NCBI GenBank assembly: GCA_025963955.1
Contig: JAOPZU010000348.1
Location: forward strand, 1 to 13,819
DNA length: 13,819 bases
DNA from: Solirubrobacterales bacterium
GTDB taxonomy: Bacteria > Actinomycetota > Thermoleophilia > Solirubrobacterales > Solirubrobacteraceae
Direction: 5' to 3'
Part shown: positions 7,192 to 13,819 of the stretch, in pieces
How positions within the stretch are numbered: position 1 is the first letter of the stretch
Layout: each line of letters starts with the position of its first letter
Position numbers and translations under genes: made by a program
The notes under the pieces: model-generated
Databases searched by the model: none
Told to the model about the DNA's origin: nothing
The model's input: the letters and a program-made list of their open reading frames with translations, nothing else

Positions 7192-9801
7192 CTATCGCCG
7201 TATCACGAGCGACCGCGCTCGGGGGGCGCTCGTCAGGCCGTCCGCCTGCGCCACTGCCGTGATGCGGTAGGTCCCCCGGGAAAGCGGGTGGCCCGCGAGC
7301 CGTCCGGAGAAGACGACCGTCGCGGTGCCCGCCCCGACGAGGGTGCGGAACGTCCCCAGCTTCACCGTGCGCAGGCATCGCGCTCTGCGGCGGTTGGCAG
7401 CGTTCACCGCGACGCATCGATCACGCACCCTCCGGCTTGCGACGGCCTTCGTGACGGTGAAGATCACGGTGGCCGGGCGATCCACGGTGACCCTGAAGGT
7501 CGCGGGGCGGCCCGACCGCGCGGCCGCCGGGCCGGTGAAGGCGGACACGATCGGGGCCATGACCGCCGTCGTCTGGACGTCGACCGGCGGCGGGACCACG
7601 AGCGGCACCGCGGGGACCTTGACCGCGTAGACGAGGGTGCTGGCCGAGGTGAGGCCCACCCCGTCCGTCGCCGTGGCGGTCAGGGTGTGGGTGCCGGGGC
7701 CCGTGTCGTATCCGGCGACGGTGCAGGAGGCGAGGCCGGAGGTGGCGTCGGAGGACGTGCACCCGACCGCGGCGGACGGCGGCAGGTCGCCCGCCGCGTA
7801 CTCGCGGGCAGCGATCCCCGTGAAGGCCGGTGGAGTGGGCGGGGTCGTGTCCCGCTTGACCGTGACGCTCGCGGTGGCGACGCCGCCACCGCTCTGCGCC
7901 GCGCAGGTGACCGTGGCGCCGGCGGTGTCGCTGCTCACCGTCGTGGCCGCGCACCCGGGGGGTTCGTAGACCGCGGATTGTGCGTCGGCCACCGTCCAGC
8001 TGACCGCGACGTCGCTCGTGTAGAAGCCGGCGGCCTGCTTGATGCCCGTGATCGCGGGCGTCACGGTCGGCGGCGTGACGTCGAGCGCCTGCTGCACCGT
8101 CGTGTCCGCGAAGACGAAGACGAAGCCGGCGCCGCAGTCCGGATCGGGAGAGAGGGGCGAGAGCATGCAGTCGCGGTTCCGGGCCGGGTCGCTCATGAGC
8201 GCCTCGACGGCGTCCGGTGACAGGGCCGGATCGGCCGAGAGCGCCAGCGCGGCGACGCCCGCAGCGCTGGGGGCGGCGGCGCTCGTGCCGTAGAAGGTCG
8301 CGAGCGGCGAAGGGACACCGGTCGCGACGCCATCGGCCGCGGCGAGTTGCGGTTTGAGCAGCACCCGCGGCGCCGTCAGCAGCGCCCCGTCCGTCCCGCG
8401 CAGGCGCGTCTTCGGCCCGCGCGAGCTGAAGCTCTCCGGCGTGTCGTGCCCGATGGCAGAGGCATCCACGGCGGCGACGGCGATCGCCCCACGGGCGGAC
8501 GCGGCGTCCGGGTTGATCGTGTCCGAGTCGGTCGGATACTCGGCGACGGCGAAGGCGCCGCCGCTGCCCCGTCGCACGATGTACTTCATGAACGGCGTCC
8601 CGGTGCCGGCCGTCCGCTTGATGCGGATCCCGACGGTCACGGTGGCACCCGTGGAGTTGGTCCAGGTCGCCGCCTCGGCCGGGTTGCCGTTCGTCACGAG
8701 GTTGTTCGTGGTCCCGCCGCTGACGCCGGTCAGGGGCGTCCCCGTCGCCGCGTTGACGAGCTGGACGTCGAGGTTCGTCGCCGCGGCGCCCCAGGGTTCG
8801 TTCCACTGCAGCGCGAACTGGATGAACGTGCCGTTCGGCACGCTCGTCACGGTCTGCGTGGTGTCGCCGTCCGCGCCGTTGAAGCTCTCGAAGCCGCCGC
8901 TGTCGGCGTACGTGCCCTCCCAGCTCTGTCGCGCGCGGTTGCCGGCGGAGGCGAAGTACGTGACGCCGGCGGCCTTGGCCGCGTCGACCGCCTGGGCGAT
9001 CTGGCCGTCCTGGAAGAACGGCTCGCTCAGGTAGTAGATGTCGTCGGCGATGACCTTGACGCCGGCGCCCACCAGGGCGCTGATGGCGTTCGCCTTGCCG
9101 ACCGCGCCGGTCGCCGTGCCCGAGGCGAAGACGAGCTGGTCGATGTTCGGCGTGGAGTCGTAGAGGATCTCGGCCATCGCTCGGCCCTCGTCGATCACGC
9201 CGGGGCCGGTGTCATCGGTCAGGACGGTGACCCGCGGATTCGGCGGCAGGTCGCCGTTGGCCTGCGAGGTGGCGATGCCGCCGTCGACCTGGTTCATCGA
9301 GTCCGAGATGATCCCGACCTTCACGCCGGCGCCCCCACCTGCGCCCGGCAACGCCCGCGCCGCCGGTCCCCGGTGTGCCGTGTCGCCCTGGCCGCCGTGG
9401 ACGGTGTCCGTCCCGAAGGCCACCACCGGCGCCACCGTCCGCACGACGCCCAGCGCCGCCAGGTCCTCCAGCGCGTCGACCGGGACGCGGCCCTCGGCGA
9501 TCGCCGTCGGCCGGGCGCCCGTCTCCCGCACCTCCATGCCCGCCGCCTGCAGCTGCGCGATCGCGGCGTCCGGTGGCCCCGCGAGGGTCACGTCGACCGA
9601 CACCCGCTGCCCCGGCGTCACCTCGAGCTGCCCGGCCCGGGCGCGCGCGGCGACGTCCCCGCCCACCGCGCTCGTGGTGCGGAGCCCACGCAGCGCCGAG
9701 TCGAGCTTCTGCACGGGATCGGTCGCCGCCCCGGACGGGGCGGCCACGGCGAGCAGGACCGCCCAGGCCGACAGGCCTGCGGACATGAAGCGCGTGCGCA
9801 C
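7192..9801 (-). CDS. Large secreted subtilase with sedolisin-like Glu in place of His, plus C-terminal beta-sandwich domains
   Basis: 869 aa. Signal peptide: MRTRFMSAG n-region, hydrophobic AWAVLLAVAAPSGA, cleavage near residue 26. Residues 40-130 look like an inhibitory prodomain ending VRTVAPVV. Catalytic core about 155-545: Asp167 in GIISDS, EGRAMAEILYD (205-215) where subtilisins have HGT, DDIYYLSEPFFQDG (253-266), oxyanion-type Asn288 in SAGN, a beta-rich insertion 300-410, and Ser507 in GTSAAAP. This is the pattern I recall for S53-like members of the S8/S53 clan. Residues 575-725 are two Ig/HYR-like modules opening with DVTPP and DTTPP; 745-869 is a beta domain with a Cys pair (RDRCVAVNAANRRRARC) common in Thermoleophilia. 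The GTG at 9801 (AGGG 7 nt upstream) is preferred; ATG at 9786 is possible. Confidence 0.88.
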   Translation of the reverse strand: MRTRFMSAGLSAWAVLLAVAAPSGAATDPVQKLDSALRGLRTTSAVGGDVAARARAGQLEVTPGQRVSVDVTLAGPPDAAIAQLQAAGMEVRETGARPTAIAEGRVPVDALEDLAALGVVRTVAPVVAFGTDTVHGGQGDTAHRGPAARALPGAGGGAGVKVGIISDSMNQVDGGIATSQANGDLPPNPRVTVLTDDTGPGVIDEGRAMAEILYDSTPNIDQLVFASGTATGAVGKANAISALVGAGVKVIADDIYYLSEPFFQDGQIAQAVDAAKAAGVTYFASAGNRARQSWEGTYADSGGFESFNGADGDTTQTVTSVPNGTFIQFALQWNEPWGAAATNLDVQLVNAATGTPLTGVSGGTTNNLVTNGNPAEAATWTNSTGATVTVGIRIKRTAGTGTPFMKYIVRRGSGGAFAVAEYPTDSDTINPDAASARGAIAVAAVDASAIGHDTPESFSSRGPKTRLRGTDGALLTAPRVLLKPQLAAADGVATGVPSPLATFYGTSAAAPSAAGVAALALSADPALSPDAVEALMSDPARNRDCMLSPLSPDPDCGAGFVFVFADTTVQQALDVTPPTVTPAITGIKQAAGFYTSDVAVSWTVADAQSAVYEPPGCAATTVSSDTAGATVTCAAQSGGGVATASVTVKRDTTPPTPPAFTGIAAREYAAGDLPPSAAVGCTSSDATSGLASCTVAGYDTGPGTHTLTATATDGVGLTSASTLVYAVKVPAVPLVVPPPVDVQTTAVMAPIVSAFTGPAAARSGRPATFRVTVDRPATVIFTVTKAVASRRVRDRCVAVNAANRRRARCLRTVKLGTFRTLVGAGTATVVFSGRLAGHPLSRGTYRITAVAQADGLTSAPRARSLVIRR

Positions 9802-9862: not shown

Positions 9863-12193
9863 TCAGCGGTTCCCTACGACGACCTGCATCCGCATCCCGG
9901 GCGCGTGCAGGGAGCACACGAGCTCGTAGGTGCCGGGCGCCCGGAAGCGGTGACGGAAGGAGCCGTCCTGGCGGACCTTGGAGGCGAACGCCGCGGAGGC
10001 CGGACCGTCGCGGAGCTGCACCGAGTGGGACTGGCGCGAACGCCAGCGCCACGTGATCAGCGTCCCCGCCTTCACGTGCAGCGTCGGCCGCTGGATGCCG
10101 TCCACGAACGCGTTGTCGGTGACCGCGACGGTGTCCGGGCCGTCGGCCACCGCCGGGCGCGCGGAGACCTCGACCGGGTCCGGGACGGGCGCGGGGGCCG
10201 GTGCCGCCGGCGGCACCGTGCGTCCGGCGTAGGCGACCTCTGGATGGCTGACCCGCCGGGTGCGGTGCCGCGCCAGGTCCCGCACGTAGATCGCGCGCGT
10301 GCCGTCGCCGGTCCCCGCGCCCAGGTCGGTCGCCGTCGAGGCGAACGCCACCCGCCGCCCGTCGGCGGAGATGGACGGGTCGCCGGAGAACCCGTCGGAC
10401 GGCCGGCCCCCCGGACCGCGGCTGAGGACGGACGCCGTCCCAGTCGCCGCGCTCCAGGCCATCACGCGCGCCGTGGACCCGGTCACGGCGGTGAAGGCCA
10501 CGACGCGGGCGCTCCGGGCCAGGACCGGGTCCAGCGGGCGGGCGCCCCCGGTCCGGATGCGGCGGGTGCGGCCGCGCTCGAGGTCCCGGAGGAAGAGCCC
10601 GACCTGCCCCGCGCCGACGCCGAGGTCCGGCGCCGTCGAGGTGAAGGCGACGTACCGGCCGTCCGGGGAGATGGCCGCGTCGGCGGAGAAGCCGTCGGCG
10701 AGCCGTCCGCGCCGTCCGTCCGCCCGGCTCGCGATGAGCACGCGCCCTGTGCGCAGGTCCCGCACGCGCACGGACGAGCGCGCGTCTGAGGGATCGGTCA
10801 CCGTCCCCTGCGCGAGCGTGTAGGCCACCCGCGCCCCGTCGGCGGTAAGCGTCGCCTCGAACGGGTCCGCGTACCGCGCCCCGCCCGCACGGGCCCCGGC
10901 GACGACGGTGCTCTCCCGGCCCGTCCGCACGTCCCGCGCCCGCACGACCGTCCGCCCGTCGCGGACGGCCTGGTAGATCATGCGCCGCCCCTCCGCCGCC
11001 ACGTCCGGGTTGTAGGAGGACTGCGAGTCCGGCGACGTGCGGTCCGGCCGGCCGACGGAGATCGTGCGCCCCGTCCGCACGTCCCCCAGGAGCGTGCCGA
11101 TGCGCCCGTAGCGCTTGGCGAAGTTCTGGTTGCCGGCGGAGGACTCGTACGTGACGCGCCGCCCGTCGCCCGAGATCGCCGGGTTGTAGGTGGAGGTCGG
11201 GTTCGGCCCGGCCGTTCCCCGCCCCGGGATCGCGCTGACCAGCCGGGTGCGCCCCGTCCGCAGGTCCGTCCGCAGCACGGCGATCTCGCCGAGCTGCACG
11301 GCCAACGGCAGCTTCTGACGGTAGGCCTCGTAGGCGACGAAGCGGCCGTCGCCCGAGATCGCCGGGTTGGACGCGTAGTCCGCCGGCTTCTCGACGAGGC
11401 TGCCGCGGTGCGTCGGCGGCGGGCCGTTGTAGCGCGCCTGGTCCAGCCAGCGGGGCAGCTGCGTGAGCTGCCGCCGCAGCAGCAGCGCGCCCTGCTCGCG
11501 GCTGATGTCGCCACCGTCGACACCCGCCCGGACGCGCTCGTCCAGGACCGCGATCGCCTCGCCCTCGACGCGGCTGGGCGACCGGCCCTGCAGGCGGCCG
11601 ATCGCCAGCGGGCTCAGCTCGTGCCGGCGCAGCGCGCGGAAGCTCACGTCCGTGACGCCAAAGATGTCGGGGGCCGCGCTCGGGATCGCGAACTGGTGCA
11701 GCGAGTGGAAGAACAGGTGCTGGGCGAGATGGCCCTGGGTGATGCTCAGCACCGCGCGCCGCGTCATCTCCCGCGTCCCCGCAGGGCCCAGTGCCCCGGC
11801 CCGCGGCGCCACGAGCACCGCGGCGAGCCTCGCCGGGTCCGGGTACCCGTGCTGCGCCGCCAGTCCGGCGAGCGTGCGGTGGTCGTCGCGCAGCTGCGCC
11901 CACAGCTCCGGCCGCGTGATGCCGAGCACCCGGTAGAGCCGCGCCTCGTCGTAGGGCAGCCAGTGGTTGTAGACCCAGGGCTCCGGCGGCAGCCAGTGAG
12001 CCGGAGCGGTCGCCGGGGCCGCGGAATCCGGGGACTTCTTGGCGACCCGCCCGGAGGAGGCGGCGGTTCCGGCGGACGGTGTGGCGTCCGCCACGTCCGT
12101 CGTCCGGCGTGCGCGCTCGTCCCCGCACCCGCCGCCCGCGACGGCGGACGCCGCCAGCAGTCCGGCGGTCAACGCTCGTCCCCTGGTGCGCAT
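9863..12193 (-). CDS. Lipoprotein with unknown N-terminal domain, seven PD40/TolB-like propeller repeats and a C-terminal cupredoxin
   Basis: 776 aa, exported. The N-terminus has RTRGR then a hydrophobic stretch ending AGGGC (Cys23), a weak lipobox, then a low-complexity Ala/Ser/Thr linker to about 65. Residues 66-260 are a helical region I do not recognise, with HWLPPEPW, NHWLPYDEARLYRVLG, and a histidine row His155, 159, 163, 166. Seven repeats of the form (N/D)PxISxDGRxVAYxS start near 276, 337, 395, 446, 504, 555 and 605, the count for a seven-bladed propeller. A Pro/Ala linker (660-675) leads to a cupredoxin (685-776) with complete type 1 copper ligands His723, Cys760, His763 and Met767. 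ATG at 12193 follows TAGGGT by 7 nt; a GTG at 12199 with GGAGG 7 nt upstream is an equal alternative (778 aa). Role unknown; copper or electron carriage at the outer face is inferred. Confidence 0.8.
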   Translation of the reverse strand: MRTRGRALTAGLLAASAVAGGGCGDERARRTTDVADATPSAGTAASSGRVAKKSPDSAAPATAPAHWLPPEPWVYNHWLPYDEARLYRVLGITRPELWAQLRDDHRTLAGLAAQHGYPDPARLAAVLVAPRAGALGPAGTREMTRRAVLSITQGHLAQHLFFHSLHQFAIPSAAPDIFGVTDVSFRALRRHELSPLAIGRLQGRSPSRVEGEAIAVLDERVRAGVDGGDISREQGALLLRRQLTQLPRWLDQARYNGPPPTHRGSLVEKPADYASNPAISGDGRFVAYEAYRQKLPLAVQLGEIAVLRTDLRTGRTRLVSAIPGRGTAGPNPTSTYNPAISGDGRRVTYESSAGNQNFAKRYGRIGTLLGDVRTGRTISVGRPDRTSPDSQSSYNPDVAAEGRRMIYQAVRDGRTVVRARDVRTGRESTVVAGARAGGARYADPFEATLTADGARVAYTLAQGTVTDPSDARSSVRVRDLRTGRVLIASRADGRRGRLADGFSADAAISPDGRYVAFTSTAPDLGVGAGQVGLFLRDLERGRTRRIRTGGARPLDPVLARSARVVAFTAVTGSTARVMAWSAATGTASVLSRGPGGRPSDGFSGDPSISADGRRVAFASTATDLGAGTGDGTRAIYVRDLARHRTRRVSHPEVAYAGRTVPPAAPAPAPVPDPVEVSARPAVADGPDTVAVTDNAFVDGIQRPTLHVKAGTLITWRWRSRQSHSVQLRDGPASAAFASKVRQDGSFRHRFRAPGTYELVCSLHAPGMRMQVVVGNR

Positions 12194-13054: not shown

Positions 13055-13819
13055 ATGCTCGCCCGGTACCCCATCACCCCCGAGCGCTACGCGCTCATCA
13101 CCCGGATCGCGCTGGCGCTGCTCGTCCTGATCGTCTTCACCGGCGCCGCCGTCCGCCTCACCGGCTCCGGCCTCGGCTGCCCGACCTGGCCCAACTGCAC
13201 CGAGACGTCGGTCCACCCGTCGCTCAACACGCACGGCCTGATCGAGTTCGGCAACCGCGTGCTGACCTTCCTCGTCTCCGCGGGCGTGGTCCTCGCGGCG
13301 CTCGGTGCCTACCTCGTCACGCCCGAGCGGAGGGACCTGCGCTACCTCGCGCTGTCGCTGCCGTTCGGCGTCCTGCTGCAGGCGATCATCGGCGGGCTCT
13401 CGGTCCTCTTCAAGCTCGCCCCAGGCTGGGTGATGCTCCACTACCTCGTCTCGATGGTGCTGCTCGTGTGGGCCTTCGACCTGTGGTGGCGCAGCGAGCG
13501 CGCCGCGGAGGAGGTCCACGAGCAGCGCGCCGACCGGACCCTGGTGCTGCTCGCCCGCGGCCTGATGATCCTCGGTGCGATCGCGATCGCCCTCGGGACC
13601 GTGTCCACCGCCGCGGGGCCTCACGCCGGCGCCTCGGGGACGGGGGAGTTCGTCGGCCGCTTCGACTTCTGGGGCGCCGAGACGCTGCGCCGCGTGATCC
13701 ACGTCCACGGCTACGTCGTCACGGTGCTCGGTCTGGGGACCGTCTACGCCTGGTGGCGCTCCCGCCGGACCGGGAACGACGAGCTGACGCGCACGCTGCT
13801 GCTCACGATCGCGCTGCTC
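13055..13819 (+). CDS. ctaA: Heme A synthase, COX15/CtaA family (3' end outside window)
   Basis: Integral membrane enzyme converting heme O to heme A for cytochrome aa3 oxidase. 255 codons are present and the frame runs open off the window end, so the C-terminal part is missing. Six membrane segments are visible, near residues 14-34, 65-88, 97-118, 124-144, 163-184 and 214-233. Signatures: AAVRLTGSGLGCPTWPNC with the extracytoplasmic Cys pair 42/48, HGLIEFGNR with Glu64, WVMLHYLVS with His129, and RVIHVHGY with His216/218. In B. subtilis CtaA a heme-ligand His sits three residues after the Glu; here that residue is Asn67, and the nearest His is His60. The ATG at 13055 is the only start before the first helix; the ribosome-binding site is poor. 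Confidence 0.92.
   Translation, partial: MLARYPITPERYALITRIALALLVLIVFTGAAVRLTGSGLGCPTWPNCTETSVHPSLNTHGLIEFGNRVLTFLVSAGVVLAALGAYLVTPERRDLRYLALSLPFGVLLQAIIGGLSVLFKLAPGWVMLHYLVSMVLLVWAFDLWWRSERAAEEVHEQRADRTLVLLARGLMILGAIAIALGTVSTAAGPHAGASGTGEFVGRFDFWGAETLRRVIHVHGYVVTVLGLGTVYAWWRSRRTGNDELTRTLLLTIALL

Follow-up and report, generated by a model that had tools for sequence, protein, structure and literature searches.

Nitrous oxide reductase, NosZ, carries a seven-bladed propeller followed by a cupredoxin, and it requires seven propeller histidines for its CuZ site and two cysteines for CuA (PMC11573801). The cupredoxin amicyanin, for its part, serves methylamine dehydrogenase (PMC12723479). A third group, that of TolB and the PD40 proteins (TIGR02800, PF07676), is made of blade repeats.

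The window, i.e. the whole stretch of 13,819 nucleotides that was analysed, encodes a protein that can be compared with each of these. Like NosZ, it places a propeller before a cupredoxin in one exported polypeptide; in contrast to NosZ it has neither the CuZ histidine set nor the CuA cysteine pair, and it has an extra N-terminal domain as well as PD40-type blades. Amicyanin/plastocyanin-like cupredoxins are the best sequence match of its C-terminal part, and both have the same His-Cys-His-Met set; the ligand loop of the window cupredoxin is nevertheless one residue longer in the alignment with amicyanin, and this cupredoxin is, by contrast, joined to a PD40 propeller. Blade repeats are common to the window protein and to the TolB/PD40 proteins, and several of its database relatives are named TolB or Tol component, but the flanking domains differ.

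Layout of the protein and its surroundings

The protein of 776 residues begins with a signal sequence, which is followed by a domain of about 210 residues and by seven repeats; a Pro/Ala linker then leads to a cupredoxin. An earlier, sequence-only reading had described such an exported three-part protein, and we recover the seven propeller repeats, the linker and the cupredoxin in the translation and with profiles. The features, with the evidence on which each is placed, are:

9863..12193, (-): whole gene, 776 amino acids (translation of the ORF 12193..9863)
12125..12193, (-): signal sequence ending at Cys23, with a weak lipobox GGGC (translation, cysteine positions, comparison with relatives)
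11408..12034, (-): N-terminal domain, residues 54-262, four-His family (alignments of relatives; Pfam, NCBIfam and PDB searches)
11696..11731, (-): HxxxHxxxHxxH stripe, H155, H159, H163 and H166 (invariance in relatives)
10229..11386, (-): seven PD40/TolB-like repeats, residues 270-655, predicted seven-bladed propeller (profiles and repeat pattern)
10136..10228, (-): Pro/Ala linker, residues 656-686 (translation and end points of two-domain relatives)
9866..10135, (-): cupredoxin domain, residues 687-776 (amicyanin profile and structure matches; separate-gene homologue L006:9881-10234)
9893..10027, (-): type 1 copper ligands H723, C760, H763 and M767 (kept in relatives with the domain)

The boundary of the linker corresponds to query residues 655-659, where the alignments to most two-domain relatives stop. 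C23 and C760 are the only cysteines of the protein. Translation may start two codons upstream, at GTG 12199, as in the database copy P0002 (778 aa); in the sequence, a Shine-Dalgarno-like GGGAGG precedes this GTG by 7 nt.

The protein had also been called a lipoprotein. The signal sequence ending at Cys23 is indeed present, but the designation does not extend to the family: the lipobox GGGC23 is weak here and a lipobox is not found in all relatives. P0003, P0005 and P0006 carry a better one (LASC/LAGC), and a loose lipobox pattern is found in 38 of 66 other fused proteins, i.e. those with the cupredoxin in the same polypeptide, and in 3 of 36 unfused proteins (the nine-member clade of the window being left out of this count). 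The protein is exported and probably held at the membrane.

The gene is flanked by a divergent M24 peptidase gene and by a subtilase gene on the same strand, and sugar-nucleotide genes lie farther on. The subtilase gene, 61 nt downstream, encodes a subtilase-like S8 protein (7192-9801, (-), Pfam E 2.1e-10). Where subtilases usually carry their catalytic His, its sequence, read by eye, is DEGRAM. At 13055-13819 (+), not far from the gene described here, a gene cut by the window edge matches COX15/CtaA (heme A synthesis). No conserved set of neighbours of fused genes was found at the loci compared. Since no neighbourhood is conserved and the neighbours in the window are uninformative, no partner or substrate is indicated. 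In an unfused clade, an AsnB-like gene and an unassigned gene of about 450-490 residues lie directly upstream (L071, L072, L073/L074 and L078; Pfam on the L078 copies), and these two neighbours gave no functional lead.

The propeller and the cupredoxin

Seven PD40/TolB-like repeats had been counted by eye, and we find the same number, with cores beginning at residues 276, 337, 395, 446, 505, 555 and 605. The window protein matches Pfam PD40 with E 2.4e-15 and a TolB-like family with E 3.3e-11. A first, stricter blade pattern gave no copy in this protein; a loose pattern gives seven copies in residues 266-656 and at most two in any of 2000 shuffles, a generous comparison because the pattern was written after the repeats had been seen. 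TolB of the Tol-Pal system was considered and rejected, the score for TIGR02800 being 42.8 bits against a cut-off of 343.15.

Ten residues of repeats 1-2 are invariant among close relatives (E289, Y291, Q293, E303, E350, N355, N357, K360, R361 and Y362). Judging from this conservation, the polar ones may dock the N-terminal domain or a ligand. At alignment residue 370, in the second repeat, a single Cys is present in 35 of 35 unfused versus 3 of 75 fused close relatives, and is probably a clade marker. Relatives also carry two precomputed accessions, PF26549 and PF26550, without match in the Pfam copy used here; from the proteins that carry it, PF26549 seems to be located in the propeller.

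There is no His in residues 263-642, His 643 and 650 lying at the propeller's end; thus the propeller has no CuZ-type site. C760 is the single cysteine of the cupredoxin, so that a CuA pair is missing as well. On these grounds nitrous oxide reductase is ruled out, and the architecture is distinct from it, as the sequence-only reading had supposed. A divergent nitrous oxide reductase would account for the domain order, which is identical (PMC11573801), but with no propeller histidine in this range and one copper cysteine we give this explanation practically no chance.

The C-terminal domain matches the amicyanin profile TIGR02657 (E 6.7e-8) and, over residues 680-776, the PDB amicyanin 1sfd (E 5.9e-7). 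With Pfam Copper-bind (PF00127) the window protein scores 19.8 bits, just under the cut-off of 21.2, while the split cupredoxin homologue in L006 exceeds it (22.8 bits). Amicyanin proper was rejected, since TIGR02657 gives 32.8 bits versus a cut-off of 110.2. The intact His-Cys-His-Met set reported at 723, 760, 763 and 767 is correctly placed, and all 77 relatives with the C-terminal domain retain H723, C760, H763 and M767 without exception. These 77 rows are those with a C-terminal domain of cupredoxin length among 120 aligned (window included); they were picked by length and not by motif. Among stand-alone cupredoxin relatives, 94 of 97 carry CxxHxxxM; two of the exceptions go out of frame close to their end, and the third is a more remote cupredoxin.

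In 75 fused proteins the ligand loop is C-x2-H-x3-M, with L or I, not P/G, before the second His. PROSITE PS00196, its pattern taken as printed in PMC517927, matches none of these 75 nor any of the 97 stand-alone cupredoxins. This failure does not exclude a cupredoxin, because amicyanin and pseudoazurin have no PS00196 entry in the table of PMC517927. The loop HAPGM was considered as unique to this system and rejected: it is also found in unlinked cupredoxins of a related genus (L110, L112, L113 and L115), and is thus a local variant and not a mark of the system. From its conserved ligands, the cupredoxin very likely binds copper.

The N-terminal four-histidine domain and its distribution

Nothing familiar had been recognised in the N-terminal region, and our searches agree. 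Residues 51-268 of the window protein have no Pfam or NCBIfam match at E 1, and in the PDB the family profile has no credible match (best E 8.4). Other members give scattered weak matches, the best being RecX in NCBIfam (1.5e-5, one of 23 members) and a helix-turn-helix family in Pfam (E 0.0043). The domain is undescribed in the libraries searched (Pfam, NCBIfam and PDB). It also occurs alone, in exported proteins of about 220-340 residues, and some of these stand-alone members end in His/Met-rich tails.

H155, H159, H163 and H166 are shared by all 23 divergent members compared, the lowest identity to the window being 34%, whether or not a propeller and a cupredoxin are present. Seventeen residues are invariant across this set, including the four histidines, E83 and Q153; the share of His among them (4/17) has P = 0.004. 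In the alignment of 120 relatives the four positions are kept in 120/120, 120/120, 119/120 and 120/120 respectively. A second set of 117 (109 profile matches and 8 from loci, a few common to the first set) has HxxxHxxxHxxH in 95. Fifteen of the 22 motif-less members were read whole: they stop before or within the motif, start after it or lose frame at it, save P0189, where the motif is altered, and P0224, where its segment is missing. The other seven were read as snippets; six have a length of 115-150 residues, and the seventh, P0230, is hardly related. The description of the domain as His-rich is therefore to be narrowed: positions 155, 159, 163 and 166 matter chiefly, whereas H66 and H77, although constant close to the window, vary across the wider family, which weakens them as members of a core site.

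The four histidines fall within 80 degrees on an ideal helix, the helical conformation of the segment being assumed; 3 of the 45 placements that share these ends do so too. An amphipathic helix at residues 150-169 is unsupported, the hydrophobic moment being as high in 1371 of 5000 shuffles. The conservation of the stripe suggests a metal site, and from the sequences we would give about even odds that a metal is bound there.

The second half of the domain aligns with secreted DUF2680-like repeats of Thermoleophilia (e.g. L058, L063). Between the first and second half of the domain there is a weak match (hhalign p 6e-4, at a probability of only 28%), and an internal duplication is weakly supported by the sequences. 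PF10925 (DUF2680) is not among the 12 families matched by any of the 23 N-terminal domains at E 1. In contrast to the N-terminal domain, the DUF2680-like repeat proteins that were read have no HxxxHxxxHxxH stripe; their own DUF2680 scores are under the cut-off, and the window domain matches no Pfam family. PMC6544083 lists lineage-specific hypothetical Thermoleophilia proteins by accession; one of these signature proteins may belong to the N-terminal domain family. A tail Cys in an [LV]CxL-like C-terminal context was seen in several cupredoxin-less proteins with this domain (L071, L072, L075, L076, L077, L078, P0166, P0164, P0195, P0198 and P0202), and is the only Cys in L071, L072, L075, L077 and P0166.

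A search for homologues returned a family and not a singleton: at least 2473 proteins match the window protein at E <=0.001 (8000 candidates scored from 5.8 billion proteins). Organism names, where given among the best 120 of these 2473, are Solirubrobacteraceae, Paraconexibacter and Baekduia. The N-terminal domain profile finds 109 proteins at E 1e-5, and the few names given are Solirubrobacteraceae, Solirubrobacterales, Baekduia and one Thermoleophilaceae MAG; NCBI puts Thermoleophilaceae in Thermoleophilales, another order of the same class, while "order" here is the genome set's own grouping. The named genome loci with relatives, seven in number, are all Solirubrobacteraceae MAGs.

With the same profile 33 of 399 genomes of the class match at E 1e-5. 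Of these, 22 match below E 1e-30, all in the window's order. Among the weaker 11, G356 is a genuine member truncated at the end of its contig. Of the other ten, the seven that were read resemble repeat proteins; six were scanned, and four of these match DUF2680 under its cut-off. Phylum-wide, 4 of 396 genomes match the profile, all in the window's family, two of them weakly. In the genomes searched, all strong matches thus fall within a single Thermoleophilia order. A three-domain protein 72% identical to that of the window, P0005, is found in Paraconexibacter sp. AEG42_29. This strain is in culture and its genome is complete (PMC11737030); an erratum altered its DSM number (PMC12981099).

Fusion, splitting and candidate function

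A strong match is present in 22 of 146 family genomes. The cupredoxin is in the same frame in six (in one of them, G779, the match spans model positions 97-757 only), it is split off in two, and 14 have the N-terminal domain and propeller only. In L006 (MAG Chersky_296) two genes overlap by 4 bp, the first running to 9884 and the second starting at 9881; this second gene encodes 117 residues with their own signal peptide and cupredoxin. L007 (MAG Prado029) has the same 4-bp overlap and a new signal peptide, the contig ending inside the second gene. Direct adjacency was read at these two loci. As a proxy for a shared contig, we compared contig sizes with those of the 97 stand-alone cupredoxins: 15 of 34 unfused relatives (L006's included) lie on contigs identical in size to that of a stand-alone cupredoxin, versus 10 matches over 100 shifts in a shifted-size control (0.1 expected each) and 0 of 72 for the fused proteins.

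In the tree at least four changes between fused and unfused states are required, all four forced by branches with SH-aLRT >=95, and three if the cupredoxin-less clade is left out (120 rows, 119 labelled, LG+G4, quick, SH-aLRT without bootstrap; some long branches meet). When two parts have been joined or separated more than once, this is classic evidence that they act together. Thus the unit of N-terminal domain and propeller and the cupredoxin probably function jointly, as far as their sequences tell. Stand-alone cupredoxins are nevertheless common, 93 of 146 family genomes having a match at E 1e-6, which argues against a strict pairing. For the cupredoxin-less clade, no query-like cupredoxin gene was called nearby in any of the 10 genomes, out of 14, whose surroundings were examined.

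Two further observations concern unfused proteins. L073 and L074 end in a hydrophobic stretch followed by RRRRRR, likely a C-terminal membrane anchor. A small lipoprotein with cupredoxin-like ends (only the ends were read) is encoded at L074:12290-12688 (-), two genes past the cupredoxin-less propeller protein and in opposite orientation.

We propose that the protein is an exported copper electron-transfer module with a second, putative metal site, a reading to which, taken whole, we assign a probability of roughly one half. The cupredoxin would hold one type 1 copper and relay single electrons, and the propeller would be the scaffold that places it beside the N-terminal domain. There, the HxxxHxxxHxxH stripe, possibly together with the invariant E83, would form a metal site at which a small substrate or metal ion would be oxidised or reduced. 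We infer copper loading, closure of the propeller, the metal at the four-His site, the direction of electron flow and the substrate; catalysis by the module is likewise putative. A role in an envelope redox or copper system, as first suggested, fits because the ligands are conserved and the cupredoxin is repeatedly fused or split, while the redox or copper enzyme itself stays a candidate. Against this best explanation stands the cupredoxin-less clade, which accounts for 14 of the 22 strongly matching genomes, and the four His on one stripe could be structural.

The occurrence of the four-His domain alone and with the propeller only, as well as the His/Met-rich C-terminal tails of some stand-alone members, could also be explained by copper handling: outside the membrane, the domain would capture or store a metal, copper or a different one, which the cupredoxin would receive, buffer or sense. 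The four-His gene of L086, directly downstream of a response regulator and a sensor kinase (read by eye), would suit such a role. But a full type 1 copper site is usually an electron carrier and not a transport site, and none of the 10 other window genes matches a copper pump or resistance family (a weak point, the neighbours at other loci being read by their ends only); we hold copper handling to be possible but rather doubtful. PD40 propellers are common binding scaffolds, one clade lacks the cupredoxin, and the invariant residues of repeats 1-2 look like a binding or docking surface, all of which would agree with a protein for surface recognition or scaffolding, whose four-His stripe would be structural and whose cupredoxin would be an accessory redox reporter or anchor. 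This explanation appears unlikely to us: if copper did not matter, it would be difficult to account for the conserved ligands and for a cupredoxin that is repeatedly fused or split.

Coming back to the electron-transfer module, no paper on this architecture was found among the titles and abstract beginnings listed from open-licence PubMed Central. The system is real, conserved and, as far as that open-licence literature shows, undescribed; its parts are of known kinds except the four-His domain. Tentatively, and at odds well short of even, this domain might be a new class of extracytoplasmic metalloenzyme, with one or two metal ions on its stripe, using a PD40 platform and a dedicated blue-copper relay, either fused or co-translated. 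Such a class would have evolved in one Thermoleophilia order, as an independent invention of the logic of NosZ and of methylamine dehydrogenase-amicyanin. The idea is open to testing, since the cultured AEG42_29 carries P0005.

The finding thus describes an exported domain family that is specific to one lineage, has an invariant histidine stripe and is tied to a copper protein, in a group of soil actinobacteria that are abundant but little studied. Should the stripe bind metal, this would amount to a new metalloenzyme of the envelope that has an electron relay of its own.
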